Virus record (IMG/VR): IMGVR_UViG_3300036795_000052 | Span: 1-51,836 of that record | Source of the DNA: a virus | Length of the DNA stretch: 51,836 bases | Reading direction: 5' to 3' (one strand) | Part shown: piece by piece, positions 1,389 through 51,777 of the stretch | How positions within the stretch are numbered: position 1 is the stretch's first letter | Layout of the letters: each line of letters starts with the position of its first letter | Position numbers and translations under genes: made by a program | Notes under the pieces: generated by a model | Database searches by the model: none | What the model was told of the DNA's origin: nothing | What the model saw: only the letters and a program-made list of their open reading frames with translations

Positions 1389-1667
1389 TTACCTCGTAGA
1401 ATGTCCGTGCGACTGATTGAGTTGTTCGCACGTTCCGCCCAGCTCTGTCGTGAACTCCGCCTTGTCGTCTGCCAGCGGTGTCCTGTTGTAGACAGATTCT
1501 ATAGAATAAGACGCTTTGATGGTATTGTTCGTTTGGGAGAGGGCGATCCTCTGACGTCGTGAAACAACGCGCCCTGTGGTTCTTGGGCGTTTTGGGGCCG
1601 TGCTAGGCCTGGACGCGATTTCGCGTTCAAGCCCAGCAACGTACTCTTCCCAGTCTGCCGGAAGCAT
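1389..1667 (-). CDS. Hypothetical protein, 92 aa
   Basis: The start is placed at 1667, where ATG overlaps the TAA of the upstream 46-codon gene (TAATG), giving a protein beginning MLPADWEEYVAGLEREIAS. The frame continues upstream, but that part looks non-coding. The protein is basic and Ser/Thr-rich after an amphipathic N-terminal helix. Function unknown. A CCCTGTGG octamer lies inside it at 1572. Confidence 0.55.
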   Translation of the reverse strand: MLPADWEEYVAGLEREIASRPSTAPKRPRTTGRVVSRRQRIALSQTNNTIKASYSIESVYNRTPLADDKAEFTTELGGTCEQLNQSHGHSTR

Positions 1668-1807
1668 TACCGCAGCTCCTCCGGAATATGGAAGACATCC
1701 TGTCCCGCCAAGTTGGTTCCGACGCGGACGATTACGTCGGCATTGAGTAGTGCCTGGAAGAGACCTTCGATACACGCTCCGCACGTGCAGTAGTTCGAGT
1801 GCTCCAT
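1667..1807 (-). CDS. Small hypothetical protein, 46 aa
   Basis: A short gene beginning MEHSNYCTCGACIEGLF, with three Cys close together (CTCGAC) that could bind a metal. It is coupled by TAATG to the next gene. The upstream AAGGCGG could serve as ribosome-binding site. Support: the coupling, a protein-like composition and neat fit between flanking features. Confidence 0.55.
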   Translation of the reverse strand: MEHSNYCTCGACIEGLFQALLNADVIVRVGTNLAGQDVFHIPEELR

Positions 1808-1887
1808 TACTGTGCCGCCTTACACGAGATGCCAGCAGCCACGAGGAAGCGGGCTGCTCCAGTACCTACTATAGGTACTAGGCAAGA

Positions 1888-1907
1888 AAGGATCCTTTCG
1901 GATCCTT
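1888..1907 (-). terminator. Terminator hairpin after the 1921 gene
   Basis: An 8-bp stem AAGGATCC/GGATCCTT with loop TTTC lies 14 bases past the stop of the leftward gene at 1921. A smaller AGTACC/GGTACT stem sits at 1861-1879. The same arrangement follows its paralogue at 2524. Confidence 0.7.
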
Positions 1908-1920
1908 CCTCACCTGGCAC

Positions 1921-2253
1921 CTACATGTACTGCTCGGCCAGAGCCTCGATGTTGACGGTGCGGCCTGAGGCGACCTTGCCGGACACGTACGCGTCCAGCC
2001 ACGTCTTGAAGCTGTCGCCGTCGAAGTAGACCTTCTTGTCTCCTTCGACAGTCACAGTCGCGATGGGGCCGTTCGACTTCTTGGCGTACGAGTACATCAT
2101 CTGGGGGGTGACCTTCTTGTCGACACCCTTGACCTCGAGGACGCGATTGGCGAGCATCGCGGCGTAGTAGGGCGTGAGGGGCGAGCGCGGCGTGGTGTCG
2201 TTGGTGTCGTTGGTGTCGTTGGTGTTGGTGTTGGTGGTGTCGGTGCTGGCCAT
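1921..2253 (-). CDS. Small DNA-binding-like protein, paralogue A, 110 aa
   Basis: The N-terminus is a Thr/Asn/Asp repeat coded by a 9-base minisatellite (about 2200-2240). The core has PQMMYSYAKK, a basic turn, then TVTVEGDKKVYFD and a final helix FKTWLDAYV. The core is clearly paralogous to the 85-aa protein at 2524-2781 and more distantly to the C-terminal part of the protein at 48256-48720. The helix-turn-helix-like pattern suggests DNA or nucleoid binding, which is inference. The gene is monocistronic, with its own terminator and an upstream TATAAT at 2365-2370. Confidence 0.7.
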   Translation of the reverse strand: MASTDTTNTNTNDTNDTNDTTPRSPLTPYYAAMLANRVLEVKGVDKKVTPQMMYSYAKKSNGPIATVTVEGDKKVYFDGDSFKTWLDAYVSGKVASGRTVNIEALAEQYM

Positions 2254-2364
2254 TTTGGGCTCCTTGTTTTGGCGAGACTTGTAGATTGATAGATTGAGAG
2301 ATGAGTTTAGATTGTTTAGTTTTTGTTTAGTTTTTTGTTTAGTTTTTTATTTTGTTGTTATTTT

Positions 2365-2370
2365 ATTATA
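2365..2370 (-). promoter_or_regulatory. -10 element TATAAT upstream of 1921-2253
   Basis: Minus-strand TATAAT in an AT-rich leader. No good -35 is present at 17-18 bases, but a TTGGGCAA box (2415-2422, plus strand) like those near other early promoters lies upstream, so the promoter may need an activator. About 270 bases (2254-2523) separate the two genes; besides this element they hold poly-T tracts and the next terminator. Confidence 0.5.
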
Positions 2371-2487
2371 CTAGGGAACGAGGGGCAAATACTAGTGCTT
2401 TTGCTAGGAATGATTTGGGCAATTTTTTGTGCACCCATTCGGGCAGACTCCTTTCCTAGAACGTTTTCGTTCCTATAGGAACGGAAC

Positions 2488-2514
2488 GAGGAGGATTCTT
2501 TTCGAATCCTCCTC
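2488..2514 (-). terminator. Strong terminator hairpin after the 2524 gene
   Basis: Perfect 11-bp stem GAGGAGGATTC/GAATCCTCCTC with a 5-base loop, 10 bases past the stop of the leftward gene at 2524. A second small stem CGTTCC-tata-GGAACG follows at about 2468-2483. Confidence 0.8.
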
Positions 2515-3688: not shown

Positions 3689-3742
3689 CCTGCACTCACT
3701 TCACCCTGTGGAACCGCGTAGCGGAAATAGAGAGGGGGGCCG

Positions 3743-5254
3743 ATGGTCGACAAGTTGAGTCAGGCATTCTGGGATTCGGTAGGATATAAGCCGCACCCTA
3801 GGCAAATGGAGTACCATACAAGCTCAGCACGATTCCGGGTTCCCTGTTGCGGGAGACGGTTCGGGAAAAGCACTATGGCCGCTCGGGACGTGACGCCCAG
3901 GTATCTTCTGCAGCCGAACAAGATGGTGTGGATTGTAGGGCCCACGTACGACCTTGCGGAGAAGGAATTCCGGGTTATCTGGAACGACTTGATTGTGACG
4001 AAGCAGCTTGGAAAGGACAAGCGTGTCCGCAAAGCGTACGCAAAACGGGCCGGGGATATGTTCATACAGTTCCCGTGGGGAACAAGAGTGGAATGCCGCT
4101 CTGCTGAGCATCCTGAGTATCTTGTTGGTGAGGCTTTGGATCACGTCATCATGTCCGAGGCTGCTAAGCACAAGCGTGAGACCTGGGAGCGTTACGTACG
4201 ACCAGCTCTTGCTGACCGCCGCGGCGGCGCAGACTTCCCGACTACTCCGGAGGGCTTCAACTGGTTGCATGACCTCTGGCAGCTTGGCCGTCGTGACAAG
4301 TTCAAGGGTATATACCAGAGCTGGAGATTCCCTAGCTGGGAGAACAGCTCTGTATACCCAGGCGGCCGCCTCGACGATGAGATTTCGCTACTAGAGGATA
4401 CTTCCGAGCCGGAATGGTTCCAGCAGGAGATCGGAGCTGACTTCGCCAGCTTCGTCGGCAAGATTTTTCCGGCGTGGGATGAGACGCGGCATGTGCTAAC
4501 AGGCGACTACAAGTTCATTCCAGCATGGCCGAACTACATCGCCTTTGACTGGGGCTTCACGAACCCACTTGCGGCTGTCGAGTTTCAAATTTCGCCACAA
4601 GATGAAGTCTATGTCTGGCGTGTGCACTACAAGAAGTACAAGACCATTCCGGACCATGTCGAGATACTGCTGTCCAGAGACCAACCAGCGAACTACCATA
4701 TCGACCTCACTTTCGGAGACCCCGCCGACCCTGCGGCCGCTGTGCAAGTTGCTCAGGAATTTGGGAAGCGTGGCTACCACGTCCAGTGCTGGGCGCCGCC
4801 GGAACTTAAGGCGGAATTCACGTGGCGAGATGGCATTGACCTTATGTCATCGTTTATGCGGCCGCGACAGGTTGGAGAAGATAGGTGGGGCGCTCCGATT
4901 GAGGAGCCGCGTTACTGGGTTGCCTGGGAGTGCAAGGAGCATATCAAGGAACTCAACAACTACCGTTCCAAGGAGCCGGTAAAGGGCCAGAACGTTCCTG
5001 AGCTTGGCAACAGAGTCGAGGACCATACGATCGACGCAATGCGATATGCACTCCTCTGTCTTTTCAAACTCGGCGCCGCAAATTCGCATTTGCACCAATC
5101 CATGGCTTCCGCTGCCCCTGTGGAGCTTTCTCCGAGGGCCGCGTCACTTCGACAAGCCGCTCGAGAACAACATGCCTTCGCTGACATGATGGGGCCAACT
5201 GGTGCCGCTGGCTTCTTCAGCCTTAGTTCGGCTGACAACGAGGTGGTCTTTTGA
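3743..5254 (+). CDS. Terminase large subunit
   Basis: Packaging motor ATPase and nuclease, 503 aa, about the usual length. Walker A GRRFGKST (residues 37-44), Walker B-like HVIMSEA (134-140, with SE where DE is usual), and RNase H-fold nuclease carboxylates at FDWGF (D269), TFGDPAD (D326) and EDHTIDAMRY (D431). It pumps DNA into proheads through the portal encoded downstream and cuts concatemers. A CCCTGTGG octamer precedes it at 3704 and another lies inside at 5116. Confidence 0.95.
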   Translation: MVDKLSQAFWDSVGYKPHPRQMEYHTSSARFRVPCCGRRFGKSTMAARDVTPRYLLQPNKMVWIVGPTYDLAEKEFRVIWNDLIVTKQLGKDKRVRKAYAKRAGDMFIQFPWGTRVECRSAEHPEYLVGEALDHVIMSEAAKHKRETWERYVRPALADRRGGADFPTTPEGFNWLHDLWQLGRRDKFKGIYQSWRFPSWENSSVYPGGRLDDEISLLEDTSEPEWFQQEIGADFASFVGKIFPAWDETRHVLTGDYKFIPAWPNYIAFDWGFTNPLAAVEFQISPQDEVYVWRVHYKKYKTIPDHVEILLSRDQPANYHIDLTFGDPADPAAAVQVAQEFGKRGYHVQCWAPPELKAEFTWRDGIDLMSSFMRPRQVGEDRWGAPIEEPRYWVAWECKEHIKELNNYRSKEPVKGQNVPELGNRVEDHTIDAMRYALLCLFKLGAANSHLHQSMASAAPVELSPRAASLRQAAREQHAFADMMGPTGAAGFFSLSSADNEVVF

Positions 5255-8050: not shown

Positions 8051-10195
8051 ATGGGATCCTTTACTCATGAGGACACTGGACATAATTCCAGTGCAAGTAG
8101 CACATCCCTAGCGGTCACGCTGTCTGGAGCAGTCGACGCAGGTGACCTACTTGTCTTGTGGGTACAGTCGGCAGGCGCTGCTAGTACGTCAGTTACAGAC
8201 GACTCTGGCAATAGCTGGTCGAATCCTGATAGCGGCGCACTATGGTTCTGCGCTTCAGCAGCCGACGCGCCTAGCGGTGTGACTATCACTGCTACTGTCA
8301 CGTCTAACGCTGTCTACCAGATGATCGCTGACAGGTTCTCGGTTGTAGGGTCTCCTGTCTATGGTAGTTACAACACCATTAACTCTGCCGGCACACTAGG
8401 TTTGAACTACAACTCGGCGGGCTGTGGTAGCCTTGGCACAGTCCCTGTGGATGCTTTGGCTTGGGGCGCATTCAGTTGTAATGACACTGCCGGCGATCAG
8501 GCTTACACGGCAGGTTTCCAAACAGGTACAACTGCGCCTGCTGACGTTATTGGTTCGCAGTTCACGGGTGCTCACGGCACTGGTCTTAGTGTGTACGTGA
8601 CAGACTGTGCGAACGAAAACGCAACACTAACTTGGTACGGAACAGGCTCTGGGTCTATTGGTCCTTCTGGATCGATGTACTTTACAGCTATCGCACCGCC
8701 TCCTGCAGCACTGTTCACGCACGAAGATTCTGTAATCGTACAGGCAACGACCAATGTGACTGTACTTACGGCAACACTGACGGAACCTGTTAGTGCCGGC
8801 GACTTGCTAGTCTGCGCCGTTAAGAGTCCCGACGGTTCTGTCACGTCTTCGAACCTGACTGACTCAGCTGGCAATACATGGGTAACTGCTGGCGGTGGAA
8901 ACTATCTCTACCTCGCCTACGTTCTGGCATCCAACGCTGCGCCTAGTGGCCTTACTGTCACGATAACTACAGCAGGCGTTAGCCACCACGGTATTGTAGT
9001 AGACAGGTTTACGCCTTCTTCAGGTTATGTTGCACAGTTCGTATCCTTCGCAGACAACCTCGACTTGTCGTCATTTAGTACGGGGCTGAACTATCCGTAT
9101 GGTAATCATCCTGCTGGGTCTCTCACGTCGGTTCCTGCCGGTGACTTGGCCTACATGGGGTTCTTCGTTCTAGCAGGCGATTCGTCTTGTGTCTACTCTA
9201 GCGGTTATCAGGACGGCTCTAGCGGTACGCCTACAGACATAGGTTCTCAGGTTACCGAATCGAACGGCGACGGAGGCTTCTCCGAGTACTTGCTTTCTAC
9301 CGACTCTACTGGTAACGTTGCTATGCAGTGGTTCGGTACTGGTGCCAACAATGGCGGTTGGGCCGTTGAGGGCGTCTTTACACATACCACTACGAGCGTC
9401 TCCGGATCGGTATCCTTCTTCGGCACGGGTGGCTTTATGCTAGGCGCCTCGGCTGGCATTGCGCACATGTCAGGTTCGGGGTCGTTCTCGGCGAAGGCGA
9501 CTAGTACTTATGCAAGAGCCCTGAATCTGTCAGGGTCCGGTTCGTTTACCGTTGTACATGAAGGTGTACGTCAAGGTATTGCAGCCTTCGCCGGTTCAGG
9601 ATCATTCACTGCAGGTGCTGCAAACGTCACTAAGATGGGCGCCGTACACTTCTCCGGTTCGGGTTCGTTCGAAGCGCAGGTTACTGGTGCTCGCGATACT
9701 CGTACGGCATTGCACCTAGGCGGCATTTTCATCGGTGCGAATCTACTAGGTGGTACTGCTACTAGACTACCTCTTGGTGGTAGTCTAGTAGGAACGAATA
9801 TACTCGGAGGTTTGGCTACTATAGTCGACCTACTTGACGGCACACTCGTGGAGTGGACAATGCAAGAAGTAGATATCGTTCTGGCCGAATACAACGATGA
9901 CACGCTGAACTTGTCTCTTACATCGGGCGGGTCCGCTTACGACATTACAGACCTTGAGCTCGACATGTACCTTAAGGCTAAGGCAGGTGATGCCGATAAC
10001 GCTGGAACTACCACGAAGTTGTCGACAACCACCGGTGAGATTACCATCACCAATGCCTCTCAAGGTCAGGCAACAGTTGCGATTCCCAATGCTGATCTTC
10101 AGGCGTCTTCTTACACGTTCTATAGGGTTGACGTTGTGAATGACAGTAAGAAGAACACGGCCATATACGGGAAGGTAGCGATCACATCGCTGTGA
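8051..10195 (+). CDS. Large repeat-built fibre or surface protein, 714 aa
   Basis: Two tandem copies of a beta domain of about 220 residues begin with FTHEDTGHN (residue 4) and FTHEDSVIV; each contains a DSAGN/DDSGNSW loop and a GADW/NW-type strand. Then come five SGSGSF-like motifs spaced 25-30 residues apart, LGG repeats, and a C-terminal immunoglobulin-like domain resembling the BppU N-terminal fold (VDIVLAEYNDDT to YTFYRVDVVND). This looks like an adhesin or head fibre. It is unusual to find it between portal and capsid genes instead of in the tail module. A CCCTGTGG octamer is at 8453. Confidence 0.7.
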   Translation: MGSFTHEDTGHNSSASSTSLAVTLSGAVDAGDLLVLWVQSAGAASTSVTDDSGNSWSNPDSGALWFCASAADAPSGVTITATVTSNAVYQMIADRFSVVGSPVYGSYNTINSAGTLGLNYNSAGCGSLGTVPVDALAWGAFSCNDTAGDQAYTAGFQTGTTAPADVIGSQFTGAHGTGLSVYVTDCANENATLTWYGTGSGSIGPSGSMYFTAIAPPPAALFTHEDSVIVQATTNVTVLTATLTEPVSAGDLLVCAVKSPDGSVTSSNLTDSAGNTWVTAGGGNYLYLAYVLASNAAPSGLTVTITTAGVSHHGIVVDRFTPSSGYVAQFVSFADNLDLSSFSTGLNYPYGNHPAGSLTSVPAGDLAYMGFFVLAGDSSCVYSSGYQDGSSGTPTDIGSQVTESNGDGGFSEYLLSTDSTGNVAMQWFGTGANNGGWAVEGVFTHTTTSVSGSVSFFGTGGFMLGASAGIAHMSGSGSFSAKATSTYARALNLSGSGSFTVVHEGVRQGIAAFAGSGSFTAGAANVTKMGAVHFSGSGSFEAQVTGARDTRTALHLGGIFIGANLLGGTATRLPLGGSLVGTNILGGLATIVDLLDGTLVEWTMQEVDIVLAEYNDDTLNLSLTSGGSAYDITDLELDMYLKAKAGDADNAGTTTKLSTTTGEITITNASQGQATVAIPNADLQASSYTFYRVDVVNDSKKNTAIYGKVAITSL

Positions 10196-10207: not shown

Positions 10208-10317
10208 GTCTAAACTTAAGTCTAAGCGTTTAGACCATAGCTTAGACGCGAGGAGCACGCAACGCGCGTGGTCAACTATAGGGCTTCAGCTGCGCGCGTC
10301 TAACTTAAGTCTAAACG
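10208..10317 (+). repeat. Dispersed intergenic element, copy A
   Basis: Order of blocks: GTCTAA, GTCTAA, TTAGAC, then TTAGACGCGAGGA (10242 on), about 40 variable bases, and GCGCGCGTCTAA. TTAGACGCG (10242-10250) is complementary to CGCGTCTAA (10295-10303). The same blocks in the same order are at 26305-26400 (minus) and 45895-46003 (plus). Here it sits between the fibre gene and the capsid promoter. Confidence 0.85.
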
Positions 10318-10684: not shown

Positions 10685-11751
10685 ACAAGTATGGATTCTG
10701 GGTTGACGTCGCTAACAAGCAGTTCGGCGACCAGAGCTGGATCCACGCCCTTCCGATCGGAAAGTACGAACATCCGGTTTACGGGGCGATGGAATTCACG
10801 CCCGAGAAGATCAGCAACTTCGCGACGAGTGTGAAGACCAAGGTCCGCGGAATCGACCCGGACATCGACTACGATCACAAGGCGACTGATGGTAAGGCCG
10901 CTGGGTGGGTCAAGGACGCTAAGGTCGAAGGCGATGGTCTCCACCTCCAGGTGGAATGGACCAAGGCCGCTTCCGAAGCGATCAAGAACGGGGAGTACAG
11001 GTACTTCAGTCCTGAGTTCGATGACGAGTGGACTGACGGTCAGGGAGTTAAGCACAACGATGTCCTTTTCGGGGGCGCGCTTACCAACCGACCGTTCCTG
11101 AAGGATCTCCTGCCCGTCAACCTCTCAGAAATCACGACACACAAGGGAGACAAGGTGCCTACACCACCGACTCCTGCACCGACCCCCAGCGCACCAGTGA
11201 CTCCCCCTGTGGTTCCTTCAGCTGGAGGGTCCGCGCAGCTGGACGAGGCGGCAATCAACAAGCTGCTGTCGGAGCACCCGCTGCTCAAGCAGCTGCAGGA
11301 GCAGGTCAATTCCGCCAACACGAAGCTGGCCGAGGCTGAGCGTGCGACTAAGCTCGCCGAGACGCGTGGTCGTCTCAAGGCGCTTCAGGCGAATCAGGGT
11401 GGACGCAAGTACGTCCTTCCGCCATCGGTCATCGACAGCATCGCTCAGGGTACCGTTGCAGGTGACCCGGTGAAGATGTCGGAAGCCTTCGTTGGCTCTC
11501 TCGAGACGCTCGCCAAGGTGGGCTTCGTCGAGCTAGGCGAGCGTGGCAAGATGGGTCGGGGTGGTGCGGGTCAGGAGAAGGACGCGACGACTCAGCTCAA
11601 CGAGCTCGTGCTTCAGACTCGGGCGAACCACTTCAAGACGACCGGTAAGCAGCTTTCGTATTCCGAAGCTGTTCGAGCCGTCACGCGTGCTAACCCGGAG
11701 TTGTACCTCGAGCACCGAGCCGACTCCTACGCTGGAAAGGAGGAAAGCTAA
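10681..11751 (+). CDS. Prohead protease with C-terminal scaffold (Mu gpI-like)
   Basis: GTG start overlapping the upstream TGA; 356 aa. The first 150 residues follow the Mu-type phage protease pattern: HALPIGKYEHPVYGAMEFTP, DYDHKA (residues 62-67) and the FGGALTNRPF segment. A Pro-rich linker (residues about 158-180) follows, then a coiled coil LDEAAINKLLSEH to AETRGRLKAL typical of scaffolds. It cleaves head proteins during maturation. An internal start at 11155 probably makes the scaffold alone, as in Mu and lambda. Confidence 0.85.
   Translation: MNKYGFWVDVANKQFGDQSWIHALPIGKYEHPVYGAMEFTPEKISNFATSVKTKVRGIDPDIDYDHKATDGKAAGWVKDAKVEGDGLHLQVEWTKAASEAIKNGEYRYFSPEFDDEWTDGQGVKHNDVLFGGALTNRPFLKDLLPVNLSEITTHKGDKVPTPPTPAPTPSAPVTPPVVPSAGGSAQLDEAAINKLLSEHPLLKQLQEQVNSANTKLAEAERATKLAETRGRLKALQANQGGRKYVLPPSVIDSIAQGTVAGDPVKMSEAFVGSLETLAKVGFVELGERGKMGRGGAGQEKDATTQLNELVLQTRANHFKTTGKQLSYSEAVRAVTRANPELYLEHRADSYAGKEES
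11155..11751 (+). CDS. Nested in-frame scaffold protein (internal GTG start)
   Basis: Within the protease gene, AAGGGAGA (11143-11150) is correctly spaced before an in-frame GTG at 11155 (residue 159), exactly at the protease/scaffold boundary. The predicted product is 198 aa starting with a Pro/Thr-rich stretch, then the coiled coil. This mirrors the I/Z arrangement of Mu and C/Nu3 of lambda. The site is seen; use of the start is inferred. Confidence 0.6.
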   Translation: MPTPPTPAPTPSAPVTPPVVPSAGGSAQLDEAAINKLLSEHPLLKQLQEQVNSANTKLAEAERATKLAETRGRLKALQANQGGRKYVLPPSVIDSIAQGTVAGDPVKMSEAFVGSLETLAKVGFVELGERGKMGRGGAGQEKDATTQLNELVLQTRANHFKTTGKQLSYSEAVRAVTRANPELYLEHRADSYAGKEES

Positions 11752-15893: not shown

Positions 15894-16849
15894 TGACTTA
15901 CGGAATTGGTGCTGGTGGTATCATGGGCATCGCTTTTGAAACCGTCCCTGGTACTTATGTAGCTCCGACGAAGTTCATTCCGTTCCTGTCTGAGACTCTC
16001 GAGTACAAGGAGATGAACAACTACCGTCGGCCGATTAGGGCGTCGGCAGCTCAGATCGGTGTTGTCGCTGGAGACTTCGACATCGAGGGTACGATCTCGA
16101 TGGAAGCTACGGAAGACGTTTGTCTTTACTTCACGGAGTGCTCTCGGGCTATCGGTGTCAAGACGGGTACGACTCCGAACTGGATCTACACGTACACACC
16201 GATGGACTACGCAGTCCCAGGCACTACTATGTCAATTACAGTAGTGCGCGATGGAGTTGTTTTCGGCTACACAGGCGTCACGGTTAGCAAAACAACTTTC
16301 ACAGTCAATAACAACGTCCTCGAGATGGACTGTGACGTTATCGGTTTGGCTGAAACCTCGGAAAGCCTTCCGACAGCGACGTGGCCTACGTCGGTTCCTT
16401 ACGGTCCTGGTAGCTGGGACGTCGAGATTCCCACCGGCACGTCCGTTACCGACATGGACACGTTCTCGTTTGAGTGCGACGATGCTGGCGCTGCAAACTA
16501 CCGACTCAAGAACGCACGCGGTGCGACTTTCGTCTCGTACGGTGAGCGATCGCTTCAGATGACGGCAAGCCGCGACTTCCTGAACGAGACTGACTACAAC
16601 CTCTTCAAGGCTGTTACAGGTCAGGCTCTCTCAATCTCCGTTGCCCCTGTGGGGTCCACGTTCTCCGCTGCGAACAACGGGATCTCATTCAAGATGTTCA
16701 ACGGAATCAAGGACGTCTACCAGGTACCGCTCTCCGGTCAAGGAGATCTGGTTCGGGCGTCAATCACCTATCAGTCAACGCTAGATGGGTCGGGTAACGA
16801 GTACTCGATCATCTACAAGACACAGGAAGTTATCACGCCACACACGTGA
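15893..16849 (+). CDS. Major tail tube protein
   Basis: 318 aa beta-rich protein starting GIGAGGIMGIAFETVPGTYVAPTKFIPF, the pattern of siphovirus tail tube subunits, and ending with an Ig-like strand set (DLVRASITYQSTLDGSGNEYSI). It lies immediately before the tail chaperones, its normal place. Hexamers stack to form the tail tube around the tape measure. Confidence 0.85.
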   Translation: MTYGIGAGGIMGIAFETVPGTYVAPTKFIPFLSETLEYKEMNNYRRPIRASAAQIGVVAGDFDIEGTISMEATEDVCLYFTECSRAIGVKTGTTPNWIYTYTPMDYAVPGTTMSITVVRDGVVFGYTGVTVSKTTFTVNNNVLEMDCDVIGLAETSESLPTATWPTSVPYGPGSWDVEIPTGTSVTDMDTFSFECDDAGAANYRLKNARGATFVSYGERSLQMTASRDFLNETDYNLFKAVTGQALSISVAPVGSTFSAANNGISFKMFNGIKDVYQVPLSGQGDLVRASITYQSTLDGSGNEYSIIYKTQEVITPHT

Positions 16850-16870
16850 TAAGCACCACAGGGAGGCACA

Positions 16871-33113: not shown

Positions 33114-33552
33114 TGCTACTCCAGGTTGCACAGTTGACGGAAGTTTCCCAGACCGTGACGTTCGTGAGTGGACAGGCGAAGAAGCCTTTTGCCCAGCTGC
33201 CTATCTCCGTGGCGAAGTTCTCCGTTGTAGGATCTCCATTAAAGACTGCGCGTCCTGGTAGGGCTAGCTTCTCGACGTTACCGTCTACGTCGTAGACGTA
33301 ACCGATCACTTGCGACCAAGGGTCGCGTGCGTTTAGGAGTACACGATGGTCGTACTGCGTATCGAGCCACTTGCGGAAGTGCTTCTTGATCATTCCGAAG
33401 TCAAGAGTTTCTAGGAGTCCGTGATTGTCGACTTCACCACCGAGTTCGAGTTCGACCCACCAGCTGTGTCCGTGAATGTTCTGACACTTGCCTGGTGTCT
33501 CATAGAGACGATGAGCCATCTCGACGTTGTGCTTGACCTTGATAGTCTGCAT
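33106..33552 (-). CDS. queD: 6-carboxytetrahydropterin synthase
   Basis: ATG at 33552, coupled by TAATG to queC; 148 aa. Zinc histidines in MAHRL and NIHGHSW, catalytic Cys in KCQNIHGH, YDHRVLL, and PTTENFATEI with VWET. Second step of preQ0 synthesis. Confidence 0.93.
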   Translation of the reverse strand: MQTIKVKHNVEMAHRLYETPGKCQNIHGHSWWVELELGGEVDNHGLLETLDFGMIKKHFRKWLDTQYDHRVLLNARDPWSQVIGYVYDVDGNVEKLALPGRAVFNGDPTTENFATEIGSWAKGFFACPLTNVTVWETSVNCATWSSNA

Positions 33553-37033: not shown

Positions 37034-37972
37034 CTATTCCTTGGTGATAGTTTCGTAGAGTTTTGACATATCGGGATCGACTACGAGGAGTGGTAGGTTT
37101 CCGCTTCGGTCCTTGGTGACGTAGCCCTCGAGCGCACCTGTCATCAAGATCCTCTTGACTTCGGCACTCTTGGTCTCGTCACCCTCTGACACCTGCTTCG
37201 TGTACAGGTACATGACCTGGTCGAAGAAGGCAGCAGCTTGGTTCGCCAGCTTGCCTGGCAGGTCTGGCTTCTTCCAGAGAAGACCTCGGTTGTCGCGGTC
37301 TTCCTGTTCGTGGCAGACGAAGATGAAGTTGAGAGGCAGATCTCGGAAGTTGCGAATGACTGTCCGCATCCGGTTCGTAGACTTGCCCCAGTCATGAAGT
37401 CCCGGAACGTCTGGGTCGCGGTCTGGGTGGTCAGCAAGAGTCTGCTTCATGACCCAGACCATGTTGATCTTCTGTAGCTCGGTCCCGGTATCGATCGCGA
37501 CTGTTCTAAAGTCGCAACCGTCCTTGGTGTTGTAGCACTGGCGATCGAGCTCATCGTAGACAACTTCGAGCTCTTCCCAGGTAATAGAACCTCTAGTATT
37601 CGGGTCAGGAACAACCTGAATGTCTCGAGCTACCTGCTTGATAGTCGACGCTCCGGCCTCGGCGCTGATGTACATCATCGGAGACATGAGAGACGATCTC
37701 TGAGCAGTCGCAGTAAGGTAAGTCTTACCTGCGCCAGGCCGTCCGTAGATCAGCATGTTGACGTTTGGTTTTACCTCAGAGACAGGTGCCATCGGAATGC
37801 CTGCGAAGGTACGAGCGGCCTTGACTTCAGGTTTCGTCTGCGGTACCTGTGCGCGTGTTTCAAGCTGCTGCTTGGGTGCTTGCACTGACATCCTACCTTT
37901 AACAGGTAGTTCGATATCATCGTCGTCCAGGGGATACTGAGTACCTGTTCCATCTTTGGGATCGAGTGGCAT
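37034..37972 (-). CDS. Sak4-like RecA-fold ATPase
   Basis: 312 aa from ATG at 37972 (TAATG with the upstream gene). Walker A YGRPGAGKTYL, Walker B-like VAIDTGTELQ, and FIFVCHEQE; the architecture fits phage Sak4/AAA_24 annealing ATPases. The disordered N-terminus carries LDDDDIELPVKG (residues 15-26), a motif shared with the protein at 433-909. Works with the ssDNA-binding protein and nuclease beside it. Confidence 0.8.
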   Translation of the reverse strand: MPLDPKDGTGTQYPLDDDDIELPVKGRMSVQAPKQQLETRAQVPQTKPEVKAARTFAGIPMAPVSEVKPNVNMLIYGRPGAGKTYLTATAQRSSLMSPMMYISAEAGASTIKQVARDIQVVPDPNTRGSITWEELEVVYDELDRQCYNTKDGCDFRTVAIDTGTELQKINMVWVMKQTLADHPDRDPDVPGLHDWGKSTNRMRTVIRNFRDLPLNFIFVCHEQEDRDNRGLLWKKPDLPGKLANQAAAFFDQVMYLYTKQVSEGDETKSAEVKRILMTGALEGYVTKDRSGNLPLLVVDPDMSKLYETITKE

Positions 37973-39162
37973 TATGGCTTCTTGTCTGTTGAGGGTTTGG
38001 CTTCTTCGTAGTATCTTGGTTTGATTTCGTAGAGAGTGTCTAGCGCGTACTGGTAATCTCGGCCTGCAGTTGCATCGATACATGGTCCTTGGAACGCGCA
38101 CCATGCGCACACAAACCTTCCAGGACTCGGATAAATCGCCGGAGCATTGATCATCTCCTTTGCCTGGTAGTAGATGTACTTACCGATGTTGTCGAGCGTC
38201 TGTCGTGGCTTGTAGATCTTATGGACCTGGATGTACTTGACACCCTCGTTCTTGAGCCACTCGAGATGCTCGTCGTACAGTCCACGCTGGTAAGCATCTG
38301 CATCCTGCGACATCACAGTTTGCTGGAAGATACCATACTCGGTGTCTTGCTGCTTCGAAACGGAAAACTGCCTGCCGAGTCTCATCTGCTTAAGCTCCAC
38401 AGGGGGCTTGGGAGAACCCTTCCGAAGTTCTACGTACAGGAAGCCCCTGATGTTCAGGCCCATCGAACGCATGAGCGCCCAGCAGTAGGAAGCGATCTGG
38501 TCGTCCGTCTCGAGGATAATGTCCGAGTCTTCCGACATCATCCGCGCAGTGGTCTTCCAGTCGAGAATCCAGTAGTCACCTCGCTTGTCCTGCATGAGAC
38601 CGTCGATGCGGCCTTCATACATTACAGGGAGCCCTATCCAGCTTTCGGTTGGCAGTTCATGGAGCGAATTTGCATGTAGCCACTTGTCGTGGCAGCGATC
38701 GCACCAGCAGAATTGCGGGAAGCCTTCCTCGTCGAGAATAGGAACCTGGAACTTGATCTCCACTGCGATTGGGGTGTATTCACCTTGGGGAAGATGCTCC
38801 TTGGCGTACCACCGAATCATTCCGGTACCAAGCTTCAGGGACTCTTCGTAGTCCTTTTCCGCTTGGTCATCGAGACCGTATTGACCAGTTACTCGCATGT
38901 AGTTGCGACGCTGTTCTTTACAGGTTTCGATAAAGGCTGTCTCGGCACGAACACCCAGAACATATTTGTCCAGGTGCCAAGTGTCGGGCGAATACATTAC
39001 TTCCATCGCCCTGTGGAACGCTACACCGAACTCGAGGGGCGTCGGCGTAACTAGGGGTTGCCTGTTCTCGTTGAACAGCCAATTCCATCGCCTTCGACAT
39101 GCACGGTAAGAGCGAAGCTCTGACACGTGTACTTCATGACGCAGCTCGATTTTATCTTGCAC
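37972..39162 (-). CDS. Cas4/RecB-like PD-(D/E)XK exonuclease with Fe-S cysteines
   Basis: 396 aa, GTG start. Nuclease motifs GRIDGLM (Asp) and YWILDWKTT (D-x-K), then QIASYCWAL. Cysteines in YRACRRRW and the C-terminal FVCAWCAFQGPC suggest a 4Fe-4S cluster as in Cas4/AddB. An additional CWCDRCHD pair lies in an insertion. Resects ends for annealing. First gene behind the promoter at 39189. Confidence 0.85.
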   Translation of the reverse strand: MQDKIELRHEVHVSELRSYRACRRRWNWLFNENRQPLVTPTPLEFGVAFHRAMEVMYSPDTWHLDKYVLGVRAETAFIETCKEQRRNYMRVTGQYGLDDQAEKDYEESLKLGTGMIRWYAKEHLPQGEYTPIAVEIKFQVPILDEEGFPQFCWCDRCHDKWLHANSLHELPTESWIGLPVMYEGRIDGLMQDKRGDYWILDWKTTARMMSEDSDIILETDDQIASYCWALMRSMGLNIRGFLYVELRKGSPKPPVELKQMRLGRQFSVSKQQDTEYGIFQQTVMSQDADAYQRGLYDEHLEWLKNEGVKYIQVHKIYKPRQTLDNIGKYIYYQAKEMINAPAIYPSPGRFVCAWCAFQGPCIDATAGRDYQYALDTLYEIKPRYYEEAKPSTDKKP

Positions 39163-39272: not shown

Positions 39273-40166
39273 CTAGCTGGCAGGAGTTAGCTGCACGACG
39301 TCGGCCGTGCCACCGATCAGGTTGTACTCGCTAGCGCTAGTGTCAGCGTCGTAGCCGAACCCGTAGACGTACAGGGTAAGGTGGTCGGCGTCGACGGTAA
39401 CGACCTGAGCGCCGCTAGCGTACGCGTCATGCTGACTGCTACCAGTGGCCGAGACGTACGGCTGGAGGTCCGTACTGACGTTGAACAGGTCTCCAGCGAA
39501 GTCGGCATTCTTCACCTGGTTGTAGACGAAGAACTGAGCCGAGACATTTCCTGTCGTAGCAGAGTCAGGCTCCGACTTCATGTTGAGGCTGACCAGGTAG
39601 GTGCCGGCTGCAGGAAGCGTGATAGTTCCGACCTGCACGGCCTTGGAGTTGAAGCTCCCGCCAGTGGGCACCGAATTGCTTGCCGCGATCGTAGTAGTGC
39701 CGACCGACTGAAGTCCTGACGGGCCAGTAGCGCCCGCGTCACCCTTCGGACCCGTTGCTCCGTCGTTGCCTGGAGTACCCTGAGACCCTGGTGCGCCGGC
39801 AGCACCTGCTGCGGCCGTCGTGTAGACTAGCTGGGTCGGAGTCCAGCCAGCGTTCCCCGCGCTAGAAGTGGCATCCAGGCGCAGCTCGTTCGCCGTTCCG
39901 GCTGTCAGGCCCGTGACGGTGCCACCATTGGGAAGGTTCCCCCTGAATTCCTGCTTCAGCGTACTGGCGTCATACGCCTGGACGTTAACAGTCTCGCCCG
40001 AGGCACCAGACCAGCTTACCTTGAAGCTAGTAGAGGTGACGGCAGATACCGTGATTCCGGTGGGCTTGGTGACTGCCGCAGTAGTGGCGCTGGCGATACT
40101 CGCGATGCCCAGACTGCCTCCCAGAGCAATGAGAGCTGCGATTCCGCCGATGATCTTCTTGTTCAT
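39273..40166 (-). CDS. Secreted Fn3/collagen-like protein, 297 aa
   Basis: Sec signal peptide (MNKKIIGGIAALIALGGS, Ala-rich cut site near ASATTA, residues 25-30), a fibronectin type III-like domain (about 35-115), a Gly-X-Y collagen-like stretch (about residues 120-150: GAPGSQGTPGND, GATGPKGDAGATGP) and a C-terminal beta jelly-roll-like domain of the C1q type. The signal peptide suggests it is exported from the infected cell, unlike virion fibres. Possibly surface exclusion or adhesion; not recognised further. Confidence 0.75.
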   Translation of the reverse strand: MNKKIIGGIAALIALGGSLGIASIASATTAAVTKPTGITVSAVTSTSFKVSWSGASGETVNVQAYDASTLKQEFRGNLPNGGTVTGLTAGTANELRLDATSSAGNAGWTPTQLVYTTAAAGAAGAPGSQGTPGNDGATGPKGDAGATGPSGLQSVGTTTIAASNSVPTGGSFNSKAVQVGTITLPAAGTYLVSLNMKSEPDSATTGNVSAQFFVYNQVKNADFAGDLFNVSTDLQPYVSATGSSQHDAYASGAQVVTVDADHLTLYVYGFGYDADTSASEYNLIGGTADVVQLTPAS

Positions 40167-41074: not shown

Positions 41075-41501
41075 AGACGACGAACCAGTCCCTGACGGTA
41101 CGCGCGGCCTTCTTGATACGAGACCACAGGGGGTTGGTATACGTCCAGGTCGCCTCTTCGTCCCAGATCGCGATGAGGCTGTCCGTGTTAGGATCTCTAT
41201 CGGGACGGATGACCGGAATGGTCGTAGTGTCGGCGATGATCGACTTGGGTGTGAAGACAGGCTGCGGACCTGTTTGGATGTTCACCGTGAAGGTGCGTTC
41301 CTGCTCACGGCGCTGGTCGGCGATCCGAGCGATGTGGTGAGCTGCTGCACTGGCAGCGTATCGAGCCTTCTCTTCGGCTTCGCGCTTCAGGAGTTCGGTA
41401 ACGGTCTCCGCTCGTTCCCAGCCTCGACACAGCTGGTCGAAGAAGTCGTTACCCTTGACTACAGGTACTGGAGTAGACCGGTCGAGGTAGTCGATGCTCA
41501 T
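41067..41501 (-). CDS. Hypothetical protein, 144 aa
   Basis: ATG at 41501 in a TAATG overlap. Helical centre (VTELLKREAEEKARYAASAAAHH), C-terminal Trp-rich region. Contains an octamer CCACAGGG at 41122. Function unknown. Confidence 0.55.
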   Translation of the reverse strand: MSIDYLDRSTPVPVVKGNDFFDQLCRGWERAETVTELLKREAEEKARYAASAAAHHIARIADQRREQERTFTVNIQTGPQPVFTPKSIIADTTTIPVIRPDRDPNTDSLIAIWDEEATWTYTNPLWSRIKKAARTVRDWFVVYE

Positions 41502-41809
41502 TACTTTACCTTTCCGTTCATCTGTTGGGCTCGCCGCTCTCGGATAGATTCGCATCCACCTTGCAGGAGCTTCTTGAGTTCGGAATCTGTGCACCAGGGA
41601 TTGCCTGTAACTGTCAGGTTCGCGACGTAGTGTTCAGGGCCGATAAGAACACCCTTAGCCATGAAGACGATGCCCCACATCGCGCCGTTCGGGCCCATGA
41701 TAGGAACGACGTCGACCATGATGATGTCGAGTCCGAAACTGATTTCGCCCAGAATCGACATCGCTCGATTATACAGGTCGGTCGTCGGACGGACTGGATC
41801 CTTAAGCAC
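41501..41809 (-). CDS. Hypothetical protein, 102 aa
   Basis: GTG at 41809, ending in TAATG overlap. The pattern VPIMGPNGAMWGIVFMAKGVLIGPEHYVANLT suggests a small enzyme-like alpha/beta fold, not identified. Overlaps the helicase end by 8 bases. Confidence 0.5.
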   Translation of the reverse strand: MLKDPVRPTTDLYNRAMSILGEISFGLDIIMVDVVPIMGPNGAMWGIVFMAKGVLIGPEHYVANLTVTGNPWCTDSELKKLLQGGCESIRERRAQQMNGKVK

Positions 41810-43263
41810 TCTTACCCTCCAGGAGCATGATGAGGTCTTTGGCCTTGCCTTGGATACGCTGCTTACGTCCTAGGTCGACTGTGTCGCGAGCCATGATGTC
41901 GATTACTTGGACGGTATCGAGTTGTCCGATCCGATGAAGTCGATCCTCCGCCTGCGTGTTCTTGCTGGGGTTCCACATCCTGTCCACGAAAACGACAGTA
42001 CTGGCTCGGTGAAGGGTGATACCTTCACCACCAGACGCGATCGTCGCAGCGAGAACCTGTATGTCTCCGGCTTGAAATGCCTCAATATTCTTGTCGCGGT
42101 CTCTGTGTGAAACCTGACCTGTGTAAGGTACAGCTGAGATCCGTCGTTGATGGAGACGCTGAATCGCGAGGTCGACCATAGACCGTGACTGGGAAAAGAA
42201 CACGAGGGGTTCGTTTGGGTTGCCATCAACCAGCTCCATGAATCTATCGAGCTTGATACTGGGATCAGTGAGCTTGACATGGATTCGACCGTTCTTGTCT
42301 TCGGAAAACTCGGGAGTGGCTAGAGCGATTTGCTGGAGTCGAACGAGTTGACTAACTACGACAGGAGCGGTGAGCGGGATGTCTTCGTTCTTTCCGAGCC
42401 AGGCTATCATGTCCTTTCTCATCTGATCGTAGATGCGCCTCTGCTTCGGACTCAGCGACACATGAAGTTCGGTCCAGTACTTCGGCGGCAAGTCAATCCC
42501 AACTTCGGACTTCTTGCGGCGGATATACCAAGCATCCCACTCCCTGTGGAGTTGTGGAATGCGGTCCTCGCGTATGCCGACGATCTTCCGAAAGGTCTTC
42601 CCTCGGCCTTGTTCGACCTGATGCTCACAATAAGTGTTCGTGAAGCGCCAGTACGAGCTATACTGCTTCGGGTGGAGCCAGTTGAGAATTGACCAGATGT
42701 CTTGCGGCTTGTCGTCAGCTGGCGTACCAGAAAGACCTGTCTTGTAGTAGCAAGACAGCTTCTTGATTGCCTGAGTCTGCTGCGAAGTTCTCGACTTGAT
42801 TCGATGAACTTCGTCGGCGATGATGTGGAACCACTTGATCTCTTTCAAGATCGGCATCAGCCGAAGAGCTTCGTAGTGCACGATCACGTAGCACGGAAGA
42901 GGCTTCTGCTTGAGTCGAAGTTCGAGTTTGTCTCGATGCTTCGAGTCGATAACTGCGATGTTCCTGTCAAGCGCCTTTTCAGACCAGGTGTCTTCTGTTC
43001 GAAGTTCCCGGATAGCTTTCACCCAGGCGTCGTAGTGCGTTGCTAGAGGTGCGATGATCAACGTCGGCCGCTTGTAAGGAGGCTGTTCCCCTTTGGGAAA
43101 ATCTTCCCAAAGTCTGTAGCTGCGTAGTTCGTCGTCGATGAGGAGGCCTTCAAGGGTCTTTCCTAGCTAAAAGCCCCATATCGTCAGCGACAAGTCGACT
43201 TGGTAGTTCCTTCTTTGCCAGTCTCTTAACACATTCTAGCTGATACGGATACGGAGTAATCAT
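41802..43263 (-). pseudogene. SNF2-type helicase, frame broken inside Walker A
   Basis: From 43135 down, a long open frame encodes SNF2 motifs: ADEVHRIKS (II, DEVH), GLSGTPADD (III), VFFSQSRSMV, ASGGEGITLHRAS (V) and DRLHRIGQ (VI). An ATG at 43263 starts MITPYPYQLECVKRLAKKELPSRLVADDMGL, but the next bases insert 7 nt (43171-43165) before GKTLEGLL, so the Walker A reads MGL-LARKDP-stop and the GKT frame has an in-frame TAG. Removing those 7 bases restores MGLGKT. As sequenced only the part from TTG 43061 or an unusual recoding event could give protein. Confidence 0.8.
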
Positions 43264-44550: not shown

Positions 44551-44743
44551 ACCTCATATGTCCCTTGTGATGTTTCGACGACTTGGCTCGAGCCCCGATA
44601 TACGGGTCCCCGCACATAGTAAAGACAGCCACAGGGGCGCGAGTGGGTTTGTCGGGAGCTTTGACTTTCTTGGCCTCTTTAGGCTTGGGTTTGTGTAGCT
44701 CGTTCAGGAGCTTCTTCACATTGAACTTGCTGTCGTGGCTCAC
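44255..44743 (-). CDS. Basic coiled-coil hypothetical protein, 162 aa
   Basis: GTG overlapping the previous TGA. Lys/Pro-rich start, one CGDPYIGARAKSSKHHKGHMRC zinc-like segment and a long Arg/Glu/Ala coiled coil. The last third overlaps another frame (44242-44550) and may be replaced by it through a shift. Function unknown. Confidence 0.5.
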   Translation of the reverse strand: MSHDSKFNVKKLLNELHKPKPKEAKKVKAPDKPTRAPVAVFTMCGDPYIGARAKSSKHHKGHMRCVRERKRQAAAAQEQARQAVRDAILQEVAQKKEESRRRKLEAAYSARQGERRLVQALQDQASVQRKEPSTDELPVRPGRIAGSAPLALSKKRRRNRNS

Positions 44744-45894: not shown

Positions 45895-46003
45895 GTCTAA
45901 ACTTAGGTCTAAGGCTTAGACTCATAAGTTAGACGCGAGGAATACGCTTCTCTTTGTTGCAACGCGCGCACGATTTTGCGCGCGTCTAACTCGCGGTCTA
46001 AGC
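45895..46003 (+). repeat. Dispersed intergenic element, copy C
   Basis: GTCTAA (45895), GTCTAA (45907), TTAGAC (45916), TTAGACGCGAGGAATAC (45929 on) and GCGCGCGTCTAA (to 45989), followed by another GTCTAAGC. Opposite to the local (leftward) transcription, so it may work as DNA. It separates the HTH gene from the gene ending at 45998. Confidence 0.85.
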
Positions 46004-46350: not shown

Positions 46351-46683
46351 TTATCCTCCTAGGATTCGAATGATCTCGCGGTCCGTTAGTCCTGGATGAG
46401 TCGTCTTGTAATCCAGGATACGGAGTTGATCCCTGGCACGCTGTGCCTGCTCGGACTTGTGATTGATCTTCGGGAACGCTTTCGGACCCTTGTGCGCCTG
46501 AGGAATGCTTCCGTCAGGATTGGTTTGTACGATCCTTCTGTTCTCAAAGTCCGTACAACGATCGTTGCGGCATTCAAATACATGAACCTTACCGCCCTGT
46601 GGAAGCTTTGTCACCTTCACAGCCGCGCAGGGCTCCTGACACTTGGGACAGCGACTTGCGATCTCGAAGGTTGTCTCAGCCAT
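46351..46683 (-). CDS. Zinc-ribbon protein, 110 aa
   Basis: ATG at 46683. CPKCQEPC and CRNDRC form a treble-clef-like zinc ribbon; a basic helical C-terminus ends THPGLTDREIIRILGG. Possibly nucleic-acid binding. Octamer CCCTGTGG at 46595. Confidence 0.65.
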   Translation of the reverse strand: MAETTFEIASRCPKCQEPCAAVKVTKLPQGGKVHVFECRNDRCTDFENRRIVQTNPDGSIPQAHKGPKAFPKINHKSEQAQRARDQLRILDYKTTHPGLTDREIIRILGG

Positions 46684-49281: not shown

Positions 49282-49490
49282 ATAACTTCCCTTCTCGAAC
49301 GCTCGAGGCGGCCGGTGTAGTACTTCTTGCCATCTTCCGTCTGGATGAGATAGCGCTTGTGACCGAACGAGAACAACCGTCTCTTGATAAGACGTACAGG
49401 AACGCGCTCGAGCCATATCCTGCGAATATCCACAGGGGCGCTGCTGTTCTGTCCAGGGTCGACCATGAGGTAAATGCTACCGACTTTCAT
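49278..49490 (-). CDS. Basic hypothetical protein, 70 aa
   Basis: MKVGSIYLMVDPGQNSSAPVDIRRIWLERV: basic small protein with DIRRIWLERVPVRLIKRR. Overlaps both neighbours by four bases. Contains octamer at 49430. Confidence 0.55.
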   Translation of the reverse strand: MKVGSIYLMVDPGQNSSAPVDIRRIWLERVPVRLIKRRLFSFGHKRYLIQTEDGKKYYTGRLERSRREVI

Positions 49491-49726: not shown

Positions 49727-49734
49727 TACTTCTC

Positions 49735-49798
49735 CCTGTGGCTTCTCGTCAGGCACGCCCGCCACAACGTACGACGCCTCCCGGCGTTTCGAATCAGG
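49735..49798 (-). ncRNA. Type II hammerhead ribozyme HHR-3
   Basis: Minus strand order: stem II 5' side (CCUG-A-UUC), GAAA (49790-49787), stem III A-CGCC with GGGA loop, GUC (49775-49773), stem I GUACG/CGUGC, CUGACGA (49752-49746), stem II 3' side (GAA-GCCA-CAGG). Cleavage is expected between 49773 and 49772. Stem II needs an internal loop, so it is the weakest of the three, but all core bases are present. Lies between the genes at 49799 and 49726. Confidence 0.82.
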
Positions 49799-50340: not shown

Positions 50341-50492
50341 TGCCTCACGAGCTCCTTTCCTGCCGGCTGAGCCGCGGCTATCATAATTCCCCAACCCACA
50401 GGGAGAAAGAGTACCGTGGCGCTGATAGCCAGTCCTAGTATTGCACCGAACACAGCTAGGACGATAAGTAGGATGAACCTAACTGTTGGCAA
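50274..50492 (-). CDS. Small membrane protein, 72 aa
   Basis: TTG at 50492 with AAGGA upstream: LPTVRFILLIVLAVFGAILG and LAISATVLFLPVGWGIMIA give two closely spaced hydrophobic helices. The last 66 bases overlap the next gene in another frame. Probably real from its membrane profile; start uncertain. Confidence 0.5.
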   Translation of the reverse strand: MPTVRFILLIVLAVFGAILGLAISATVLFLPVGWGIMIAAAQPAGKELVRQWSSTSHSDSSTGSSRTTPRGR

Positions 50493-50856
50493 GTAGCATC
50501 CTTGCTTCGGAAATGAAGCTGTTGATGTTGGCGAGCTCCATGTACAGGGCCGCGAGGTCTTCGCTCTCGTCGTACTGGTCGTCGCTGACGAGCTCCGATT
50601 CCGCACCCTTGGCGTCTGCGTACTGCCTGTACGTCAGGCCGAGTCGCGATACGGCCTTAGCTTCGGCGACGAAGCCCTCGAGCTCGACGCACGTCGTCCT
50701 AGCTGTCCAAGTCAGGTGTACGAGGTCTGCGAGTGGGACGTTGAAGACTCGTTCTTCGTCTTCTGGCTCGGTGTATAGGTGCAGATTCGTCTGCATGTTC
50801 ACCGACAGCGTCACCTCGATGTTGTCGTCGACTTTCTTGAACGTGAATGGTTCCAT
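50479..50856 (-). CDS. Hypothetical protein, 125 aa, translated behind ribozyme HHR-1
   Basis: ATG at 50856: MEPFTFKKVDDNIEVTLSVNMQTNLHLYTEPED; beta N-terminal half and acidic helical C-terminal half. Its GGAG ribosome-binding site lies in stem II of HHR-1. Confidence 0.65.
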   Translation of the reverse strand: MEPFTFKKVDDNIEVTLSVNMQTNLHLYTEPEDEERVFNVPLADLVHLTWTARTTCVELEGFVAEAKAVSRLGLTYRQYADAKGAESELVSDDQYDESEDLAALYMELANINSFISEARMLLANS

Positions 50857-50860
50857 GGTA

Positions 50861-50920
50861 CTCCGATCTCGTCAGGCCAGTTCCTTACTGGCGACGGCTC
50901 ACGCCGTTTCGATCGTGGAG
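50861..50920 (-). ncRNA. Type II hammerhead ribozyme HHR-1
   Basis: Minus strand: stem II 5' CGAUC (50915-50911), GAAA, stem III A-CGGC closed by a GUGA tetraloop, GUC (50895-50893), stem I GCCAG/CUGGC with loop UAAGGAA, CUGACGA (50875-50869), stem II 3' GAUCG then GAG pairing with upstream CUC. Cleavage expected between 50893 and 50892. All conserved core nucleotides are present and all three stems close. Confidence 0.92.
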
Positions 50921-51085
50921 TTAGTGGAAGCTGTCGTCGACGAGCCTGTCGTTCTCGGTCAGAAGCCTGACGATTTCTGCCTGGTCGTCCAGGTCGAGCT
51001 TCTTCAGGTGGTCGACGATCTGCTGCAGCGACAGCGCCTGTGCAGTGTTTTCGGTGGCTATCTGCATGTCTACGACTCCGTACAT
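50921..51085 (-). CDS. Small helical protein, 54 aa, between two ribozymes
   Basis: ATG at 51085 after UUUUAGGAG: MYGVVDMQIATENTAQALSL, then QQIVDHLKKLDLDDQAE. Its stop (TAA, 50921) abuts HHR-1 and its ribosome-binding site is in stem II of HHR-2, so after both cleavages it would be left as a monocistronic RNA. Function unknown. Confidence 0.7.
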   Translation of the reverse strand: MYGVVDMQIATENTAQALSLQQIVDHLKKLDLDDQAEIVRLLTENDRLVDDSFH

Positions 51086-51091
51086 GGTCTC

Positions 51092-51151
51092 TCCTAAAAC
51101 TCATCAGGCAGGTATGTCCTGCGACCGGCGTAAGCCGGTTTCGTTCTAAGA
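51092..51151 (-). ncRNA. Type II hammerhead ribozyme HHR-2
   Basis: Minus strand: 9-pair stem II (UCUUAGAAC with GUUUUAGGA, two G-U), GAAA (51142-51139), stem III A-CCGGC with UUAC loop, GUC (51125-51123), stem I GCAGG/CCUGC with loop ACAUA, CUGAUGA (51107-51101). Cleavage expected between 51123 and 51122. The 5' side of stem II contains the UAG stop of the upstream gene and the 3' side contains AGGA of the downstream ribosome-binding site. Confidence 0.93.
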
Positions 51152-51454
51152 CTCTTCGGCCTGTAGCTTCCGTTCGGCATCGAACCTATTCATCCGCTCT
51201 CTGCGGATGACTGCCGCGACGCGCTCTTCCCTGGGCCTGAAGGAGCGTATCTCGAGTGCACCCTGACGATTAATAAGGCTCAGGTCGAGTGTCGCGGCGA
51301 GGTCTGCGAATGCGCTTACTACATTCGCGCCGAGTTCTTTGCTAACATCGAGCCACGCGATCGTCCGATACTTCTCGTGGTCCGGTAGCTCCATGAGCCT
51401 GCGGCTCATTTCGACAGCGCCGAGTTCCTTCTCGATCTCTTCGTTCTTCGTCAT
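51146..51454 (-). CDS. Hypothetical protein, 102 aa, ends inside ribozyme HHR-2
   Basis: MTKNEEIEKELGAVEMSRRLM; soluble, with YRTIAWLDVSKELGANVVSAFADLAATLDLSL. Its stop codon forms part of stem II of HHR-2. Function unknown. Confidence 0.65.
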   Translation of the reverse strand: MTKNEEIEKELGAVEMSRRLMELPDHEKYRTIAWLDVSKELGANVVSAFADLAATLDLSLINRQGALEIRSFRPREERVAAVIRRERMNRFDAERKLQAEES

Positions 51455-51777
51455 TGCTTCTCCGCGTCCGCTGTAGCGTCTTCCTGCAGCTGCTTCTCAT
51501 AGGTCCGCTCGATGAGGTAGTCGCCAAACTTCTCGACGTAGGTCGACGTTTCGGCATCTCCGCGCGGCTCTTCCTTTTGGTACAAACTCCACAGGGTGAG
51601 GAGTTTCTGGGTTTCTTCCTCGGCCTTGGAAGTCTGTATCACAATCTCGTCGGTGTCGGTTCGGTTGACTTCGCTGATGTCCCAGCCATCGACCTTGACT
51701 GTGAAATCTTGAGCCTTTCGTTCCTTCGGGAATATCGACTCGTCCTCAAGAGCTTTGAACAATTCGAGTAGGGTCAT
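51451..51777 (-). CDS. Hypothetical protein, 108 aa
   Basis: MTLLELFKALEDESIFPKERKAQDFTVKVDGW; acidic, helical C-terminus with KLLTLWSLYQKEEP. First gene of the leftward ribozyme operon, preceded by AAGGAG; the upstream part of the operon is at the left end of the window across the closure. Octamer at 51589. Confidence 0.65.
   Translation of the reverse strand: MTLLELFKALEDESIFPKERKAQDFTVKVDGWDISEVNRTDTDEIVIQTSKAEEETQKLLTLWSLYQKEEPRGDAETSTYVEKFGDYLIERTYEKQLQEDATADAEKQ

Follow-up and report, generated by a model that had tools for sequence, protein, structure and literature searches.

Strand-wise arrays of an octamer in a phage genome as probable template sites of the phage's own AEP primase

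We analysed the whole of IMG/VR virus record IMGVR_UViG_3300036795_000052 (positions 1 to 51,836, hereafter the window), and found that the octamer CCCTGTGG is present in 29 exact copies, which keep their distance from one another on the same strand and are distributed without regard to those on the opposite strand. From this arrangement, and from similar words in other phages that carry a related primase, we infer that the octamer is very probably a template site at which the phage's own AEP primase starts priming.

An earlier reading of the window, made from the sequence only, had reported 29 copies and a strong over-representation. An exact recount gave the same copies at the same positions, 17 on the + strand and 12 on the − strand, the first at 1572 and the last at 51589-51596. 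A second-order Markov model predicted 1.07 copies (z = 27), which makes CCCTGTGG the most over-represented 8-mer of the window by that measure. The copies inside genes also exceed what codon usage would give. In 300 rounds of synonymous-codon shuffling within called genes, 2.2 ± 1.2 in-gene copies were obtained (maximum 6), compared with the 23 present. The in-gene copies lie both sense and antisense and in several frames, with 10 of the 23 in one common sense frame, and the remaining 6 of the 29 fall between called genes. An origin of the octamer as an artefact of composition or codon usage was ruled out by the Markov and synonymous-shuffle tests. CCCTGTGG is a real, selected site that is probably read by a protein.

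Contrary to the earlier statement that only the eight bases are constant, the flanks also showed preferences. All 29 window sites have C or G at position −2 (about 1e-8), as do 139/164 sites of related genomes; in the window, G is rare at position +8, and A never occurs at position +12. The C/G at −2 perhaps reflects a base held fixed near the growing end of a primer. The octamer itself splits as CCCT+GTGG, and the GTG core is by construction present in 29/29 sites.

On the + strand, the octamers are located at 1572-1579, 3704-3711 (between called genes, upstream of terL), 5116-5123 (inside terL), 8443-8450, 11205-11212, 16645-16652, 20455-20462, 21669-21676, 23741-23748, 27091-27098 (between called genes), 28379-28386, 32892-32899, 35731-35738 (within the primase gene), 39009-39016, 42542-42549, 46595-46602, and 49734-49741. 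Those on the − strand are at 16856-16863 (between called genes), 20172-20179, 24038-24045, 26010-26017, 30651-30658, 34855-34862 (within the primase gene), 38397-38404, 41124-41131, 44629-44636, 49430-49437, 50396-50403, and 51589-51596.

Spacing was assessed in eight related genomes pooled. Pairs of octamers on the same strand less than 1 kb apart numbered 8, against 46 expected, whereas opposite-strand pairs within that distance numbered 47, against 45 expected. When the strand labels were shuffled with positions fixed, the same-strand pairs averaged 27.9 with a minimum of 16, and 0/2000 shuffles reached 8. This repulsion on the same strand, together with the independence between strands, indicates that the two strands are read independently of each other. 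In the window, the word recurs on each strand about once in 3 kb. Gaps between same-strand neighbours in the window are 1.2-5.4 kb (+) and 1.0-4.8 kb (−), with coefficients of variation (CV) of 0.38 and 0.39, respectively; for 19 sites on one strand of the relative G007, the CV is 0.24. Neighbours on opposite strands come as close as 211 bp in the window, and 21-60 bp was seen elsewhere, with a minimum of 21 bp in one relative. The even spread reported earlier therefore holds for each strand taken separately and fails for the two strands together. Strict alternation of + and − sites was suggestive, but independent regular spacing on each strand explains the pattern.

For comparison, Okazaki fragments of phage T7 are reportedly 1-6 kb long with a mean of about 3 kb, and none are shorter than 1 kb (PMC12839067); the per-strand octamer gaps (1.0-5.4 kb) resemble these lengths. 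The + octamers span the whole genome, and the − octamers are limited to 16.9-51.6 kb. This leaves a stretch of about 17 kb, running from 51.6 kb across the genome ends as far as 16.86 kb, without a − octamer while + sites continue. The gap, which is seen only partly in relatives, could mark the direction of replication. The record carries an exact direct repeat of 178 bp at both ends (1-178 and 51659-51836) and thus probably represents a complete genome that was assembled as a circle.

Through TerL, we collected 25 related IMG/VR contigs, most of them 73-82% identical and two near 56%. The 10 kb records L168-L170 were left out as too short for word statistics. A near-identity search among cultured phages gave no match to the window, and a terL search across GTDB genomes gave no host. 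Among 8-mers, the octamer took first place in six of the relatives that were retrieved and second place in another three. Of the two outcomes that the sequence-only reading had named as refuting, a count matched by Markov models and loss of the sites from close relatives, neither was seen. Near-full-length records of relatives carry 7-29 octamers. Only 20-47% of the mappable window sites are retained in a given relative, against about 8% of background 8-mers, and the totals stay at 16-29 despite this turnover of positions. Since most sites shift and the totals remain similar, selection acts on the number and spacing of octamers more than on their place. Some places do recur: the + octamer lying 1.4 kb into terL is found in nearly all relatives, and those at 20455 and 39009 are retained in four and five relatives, respectively. 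In more distant relatives, the word changes to YCCTGTGG, and in those whose primase is 45% identical, it changes to CCGTGTGG.

We then considered which protein reads the octamer. The best-fitting reader is the phage primase, which was outside the candidates listed earlier. Those had included the small paralogous proteins at 1921, 2524 and 48256, for which no DNA-binding family was found. The product of the − strand gene at 34256-36415 is a predicted primase-helicase, with a RepB'-like AEP and helix-bundle-like region (residues about 1-300) followed by a DUF3987 P-loop domain. Its N-terminus matches Pfam RepB_primase (E = 3e-7). A sequence search of PDB gave only weak RepB' matches (E 0.1-0.2), and the assignment to the AEP family was settled by a fold search. 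With the AF2 model of residues 1-340 (pLDDT 88), this search returned RepB' of RSF1010 (3h20, E = 9e-11) and 6zp9 (E = 2e-7). Structural alignment with VIA-align gave Z scores of 18.3 for S-2L PrimPol, 17.7 for RepB' and 7.9 for pRN1, and NrS-1 was also among the matches. The catalytic acidic residues conserved in AEP enzymes are present: the W-x-D-L-D sequence (D83, D85), which corresponds to AEP motif I, is unchanged across 24 homologues. By its modelled fold, the protein is thus a RepB'-like AEP primase. Residues 190-292 are helical in the model and align to the DNA-bound helix bundle of pRN1 (Z 6.6, 4.1 A), a Z score that is common for helical folds.

Whether such words accompany the primase elsewhere was examined in cultured phages, where 344 records had a tblastn match to the window primase. 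We ranked 7-mers by over-representation in 18 phages with the AEP domain, drawn from many hosts, and in 7 phages without it; these controls were few and only partly host-matched. As positive controls, the stoperator of D29 and the promoter of T7 were both recovered by the ranking. An unbounded expectation-maximization motif search was dropped because it fell into codon periodicity in many genomes. A word with a GTG core, scored as TGTGG, TGTGC or CGTGC, was the top 7-mer in 15 of the 18 AEP-domain phages and in none of the 7 others (Fisher 2.5e-4). Words across the AEP phages include CTGTGG, CGTGTGG, GTGTGG, GTGTGGCC, CTGTGCT, CCTGTGC, and GTGTGCC. Of the 13 proteins or domains from the window that were looked for, the AEP domain alone was present in all GTG-word phages, and each of PolA, Sak4, the exonuclease, SNF2 and DUF3987 went undetected in some. 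Hortus1, which has SNF2 and DUF3987 without AEP, shows no GTG-core word. The six GTGC phages, which infect hosts of different phyla, all group within a single branch of the primase tree; the GTGG phages are placed elsewhere in it. As judged from these sequences, whether G or C comes after GTG goes with the position in the primase tree and not with the host.

The spacing test was repeated in cultured phages with each phage's own word. Repulsion on the same strand with independence between strands was found in unrelated phages: Nonagon (P = 0.0003), PrincePhergus (0/3000), CMP1 (0.0007), Cozz (0.0013), McGalleon (0.0017), Kurt1 (0.003), Muddy (0.008), and CherryonLim (0.015). In Jojan60, same-strand repulsion was weak.

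These observations lead to the following scheme. A RepB'-type primase would start primers at CCCTGTGG on a single-stranded template, with its helix-bundle-like domain reading GTGG on the template 3' side. The primer would be started on the adjoining bases on the 5' side of GTGG (CCCT) and would itself begin with 5'-(A)GGG. Since each strand has a separate array, with a site every 1-5 kb or so, whichever strand is exposed, the lagging-strand template or a displaced strand, would be primed often enough. A + site would serve a rightward fork and a − site a leftward fork, and the family A polymerase (27457-29823, − strand) would be the likely enzyme to extend the primers. The sequences themselves show the enrichment, the strand-wise spacing, the turnover of positions and the tracking of the word with the AEP domain across phages. 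That the primase binds the octamer, where and in which direction the primer starts, and that the sites serve in replication are the parts of this scheme that we infer.

The division CCCT-GTGG fits such a reader because the published template motifs of NrS-1, pRN1 and ssiA share GTG. For the primase of NrS-1, likewise a phage AEP enzyme, GTGG and GTGA are the most efficient template motifs, with the start 1-4 bases upstream (PMC8718748), and its GTGG matches that of the window. NrS-1 differs in that it accepts TTTGGTTA as well and combines priming with polymerase activity of its own, whereas the window has a separate PolA and an eight-base site. The pRN1 primase ORF904, which also joins an AEP domain to a helix bundle, requires GTG in the template and makes its first dinucleotide opposite the two bases lying 5' of this motif; its published complex contained GTGCTCA (PMC8076596), to be compared with the Nonagon word CTGTGCT. 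It is, however, an archaeal plasmid enzyme, and what the paper describes is its specificity for the template in vitro and not a genomic array of evenly spaced sites (PMC8076596). RepB' of RSF1010 (3h20, 3h25) is among the closest solved folds and acts at strand-specific sites (ssiA and ssiB), with GTG proposed as its start in ssiA (PMC4434180). There, a single 40-nt hairpin site is used per strand, in contrast to the octamer, which lacks a hairpin and occurs 12-17 times per strand. The gp4 primase of T7 is a phage primase whose active start sites lie 1-6 kb apart, in keeping with Okazaki fragments of about 3 kb (PMC12839067). It is of the DnaG type and recognizes GTC or (G/T)2GTC, a word so common (504 GTC in the lagging-strand region) that active sites must be selected from it (PMC12839067), whereas the word of the window is rare enough to serve as a map.

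Several findings speak against the octamer being a primase site. No ssiA-like hairpin was found, and the 40 nt upstream of the octamers show no excess structure (z 0.3); a slight excess was seen downstream (z −2.3). The helix-bundle match of the primase (Z 6.6) falls in the range usual for helical folds. In the survey, the core pattern was set only after the first genomes had been viewed, and the surveyed phages are related and so not independent. In Pan2 and Quantum, the AEP domain is present but the top word lacks a GTG core, and the control Che8 shows a GTG-containing word at rank 4. The CN1A word, CCGTGCG, clusters and shows no repulsion, and the spacing in Yappy and Thunderclap was not significant.

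A variant of the same idea holds that the octamers are ssi sites of the RSF1010 type, where the same primase would start continuous synthesis on displaced strands and not Okazaki fragments. RepB' primes at a single ssi site on each strand, replication of RSF1010 runs in leading-strand mode (PMC4434180), and the presence of octamers on both strands across most of the genome would suit such a mode. Lagging-strand and displaced-strand priming are indistinguishable by sequence. Many regular sites 1-5 kb apart on each strand nevertheless look like repeated priming, and the upstream hairpin of ssiA is missing here, so that we regard the displaced-strand mode as improbable.

Another proposal was that of a Chi-like site for host or phage recombination, which would modulate a RecBCD/AddAB-like enzyme or a phage exonuclease. 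The octamer is asymmetric and enriched on both strands, and the phage has both a RecB/Cas4-like exonuclease and a Sak4 ATPase. The word, however, tracks the AEP primase across phages of Gordonia, Mycobacterium, Microbacterium, Pseudomonas, Serratia, Stenotrophomonas, and Clavibacter, which are unrelated hosts. Homologues of Sak4 and of the exonuclease were undetected in the GTG-word phages CMP1, Nonagon and CN1A (Nonagon is annotated with a Cas4-type nuclease), and repulsion on the same strand is not predicted for Chi. We therefore consider this earlier option very unlikely.

Localized single-strand nicks occur in the DNA of T5, phiKMV-like and tf phages. A strand-specific short consensus for nicking would look alike across a genome, and per-strand regularity is conceivable for it. 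Among the proteins scanned, no candidate nickase was found, and the GTG core co-varies with the primase family, which leaves nick sites with hardly any likelihood.

The sequence-only reading had likened the octamers, with reservations, to the stoperators of cluster A phages, or else to sites for small paralogous proteins. The copy number is indeed similar (29, against the 23-35 it quoted for cluster A), and the D29 stoperator is likewise a short asymmetric word in about 20 or more copies. The reservations were justified: 23/29 octamers lie within called genes, sense and antisense, on both strands (17 + and 12 −), whereas the D29 word is longer, read by a repressor, and, in the same test, one-sided (19:2) and clustered. 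The proteins scanned, which did not include every small gene, contained no repressor family. Repressor sites of this kind, or sites for the small paralogues, are exceedingly improbable.

A recognition site for the DNA-modifying transglycosylase had been suggested as well, which here would be a motif for 7-deazaguanine insertion by a DpdA-like enzyme, and the window does hold a dPreQ0 pathway (folE, queE, queD and queC, 29820-34259, − strand) with a 276-aa protein at 29820-30650 whose match to DpdA is weak (E = 0.01); yet no homologue of QueC or of the DpdA candidate was found in the other GTG-word phages, and strand-wise spacing of 1-5 kb is not predicted, so that the suggestion has next to nothing in its favour.

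Primase start sites are usually three to five bases long, too common to show in a genome. A priming role would make the octamer different: as a rare word whose spacing is under selection on each strand separately, it would record directly, over evolution, where Okazaki fragments are initiated. It is likely that in phages with an AEP primase a word specific to the primase is repeated over the whole genome in arrays spaced strand by strand, that word and primase co-evolve, and that specificity, Okazaki interval and fork direction could be read from sequence in hundreds of phages. If so, the genome sequence alone may reveal where new pieces of DNA start, template specificity could be predicted for many uncharacterized phage primases, the evolution of that specificity could be tested through natural variation, and the replication direction of uncultured phages could be deduced from their sequence only. 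A targeted literature search, incomplete in coverage, found no earlier report of such an array, and GTGTGG is absent from the repeats listed in a survey of Microbacterium phages (PMC7302621).

Besides the primase, the phage is predicted to encode its own replication set, all on the − strand. It comprises the family A DNA polymerase at 27457-29823, with an N-terminal domain of the uracil-DNA glycosylase superfamily, a DUF669 protein of the single-strand DNA binding family (36534-37028), a Sak4-like single-strand annealing ATPase (37034-38110), a PD-(D/E)XK (RecB/Cas4-like) exonuclease (37972-39162), and an SNF2-type helicase (41802-43061). Phages Almagne and Serbin also show a uracil-DNA glycosylase match. 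Within the replication half of the genome, the − strand gene at 39273-40166 encodes a protein that combines collagen-like repeats with a fibronectin type III domain.

Other repeats were seen in the window. Units of GTCTAA followed by GACGCGAGGA occur between genes, in both orientations, at 10208-10260, 26348-26390, and 45895-45947, and this element is probably regulatory. Tandem units of TTGTTTAGTTTTT at 2312-2357 adjoin the paralogous genes 1921-2253 and 2524-2781, and a large imperfect palindrome lies at 2805-2888.

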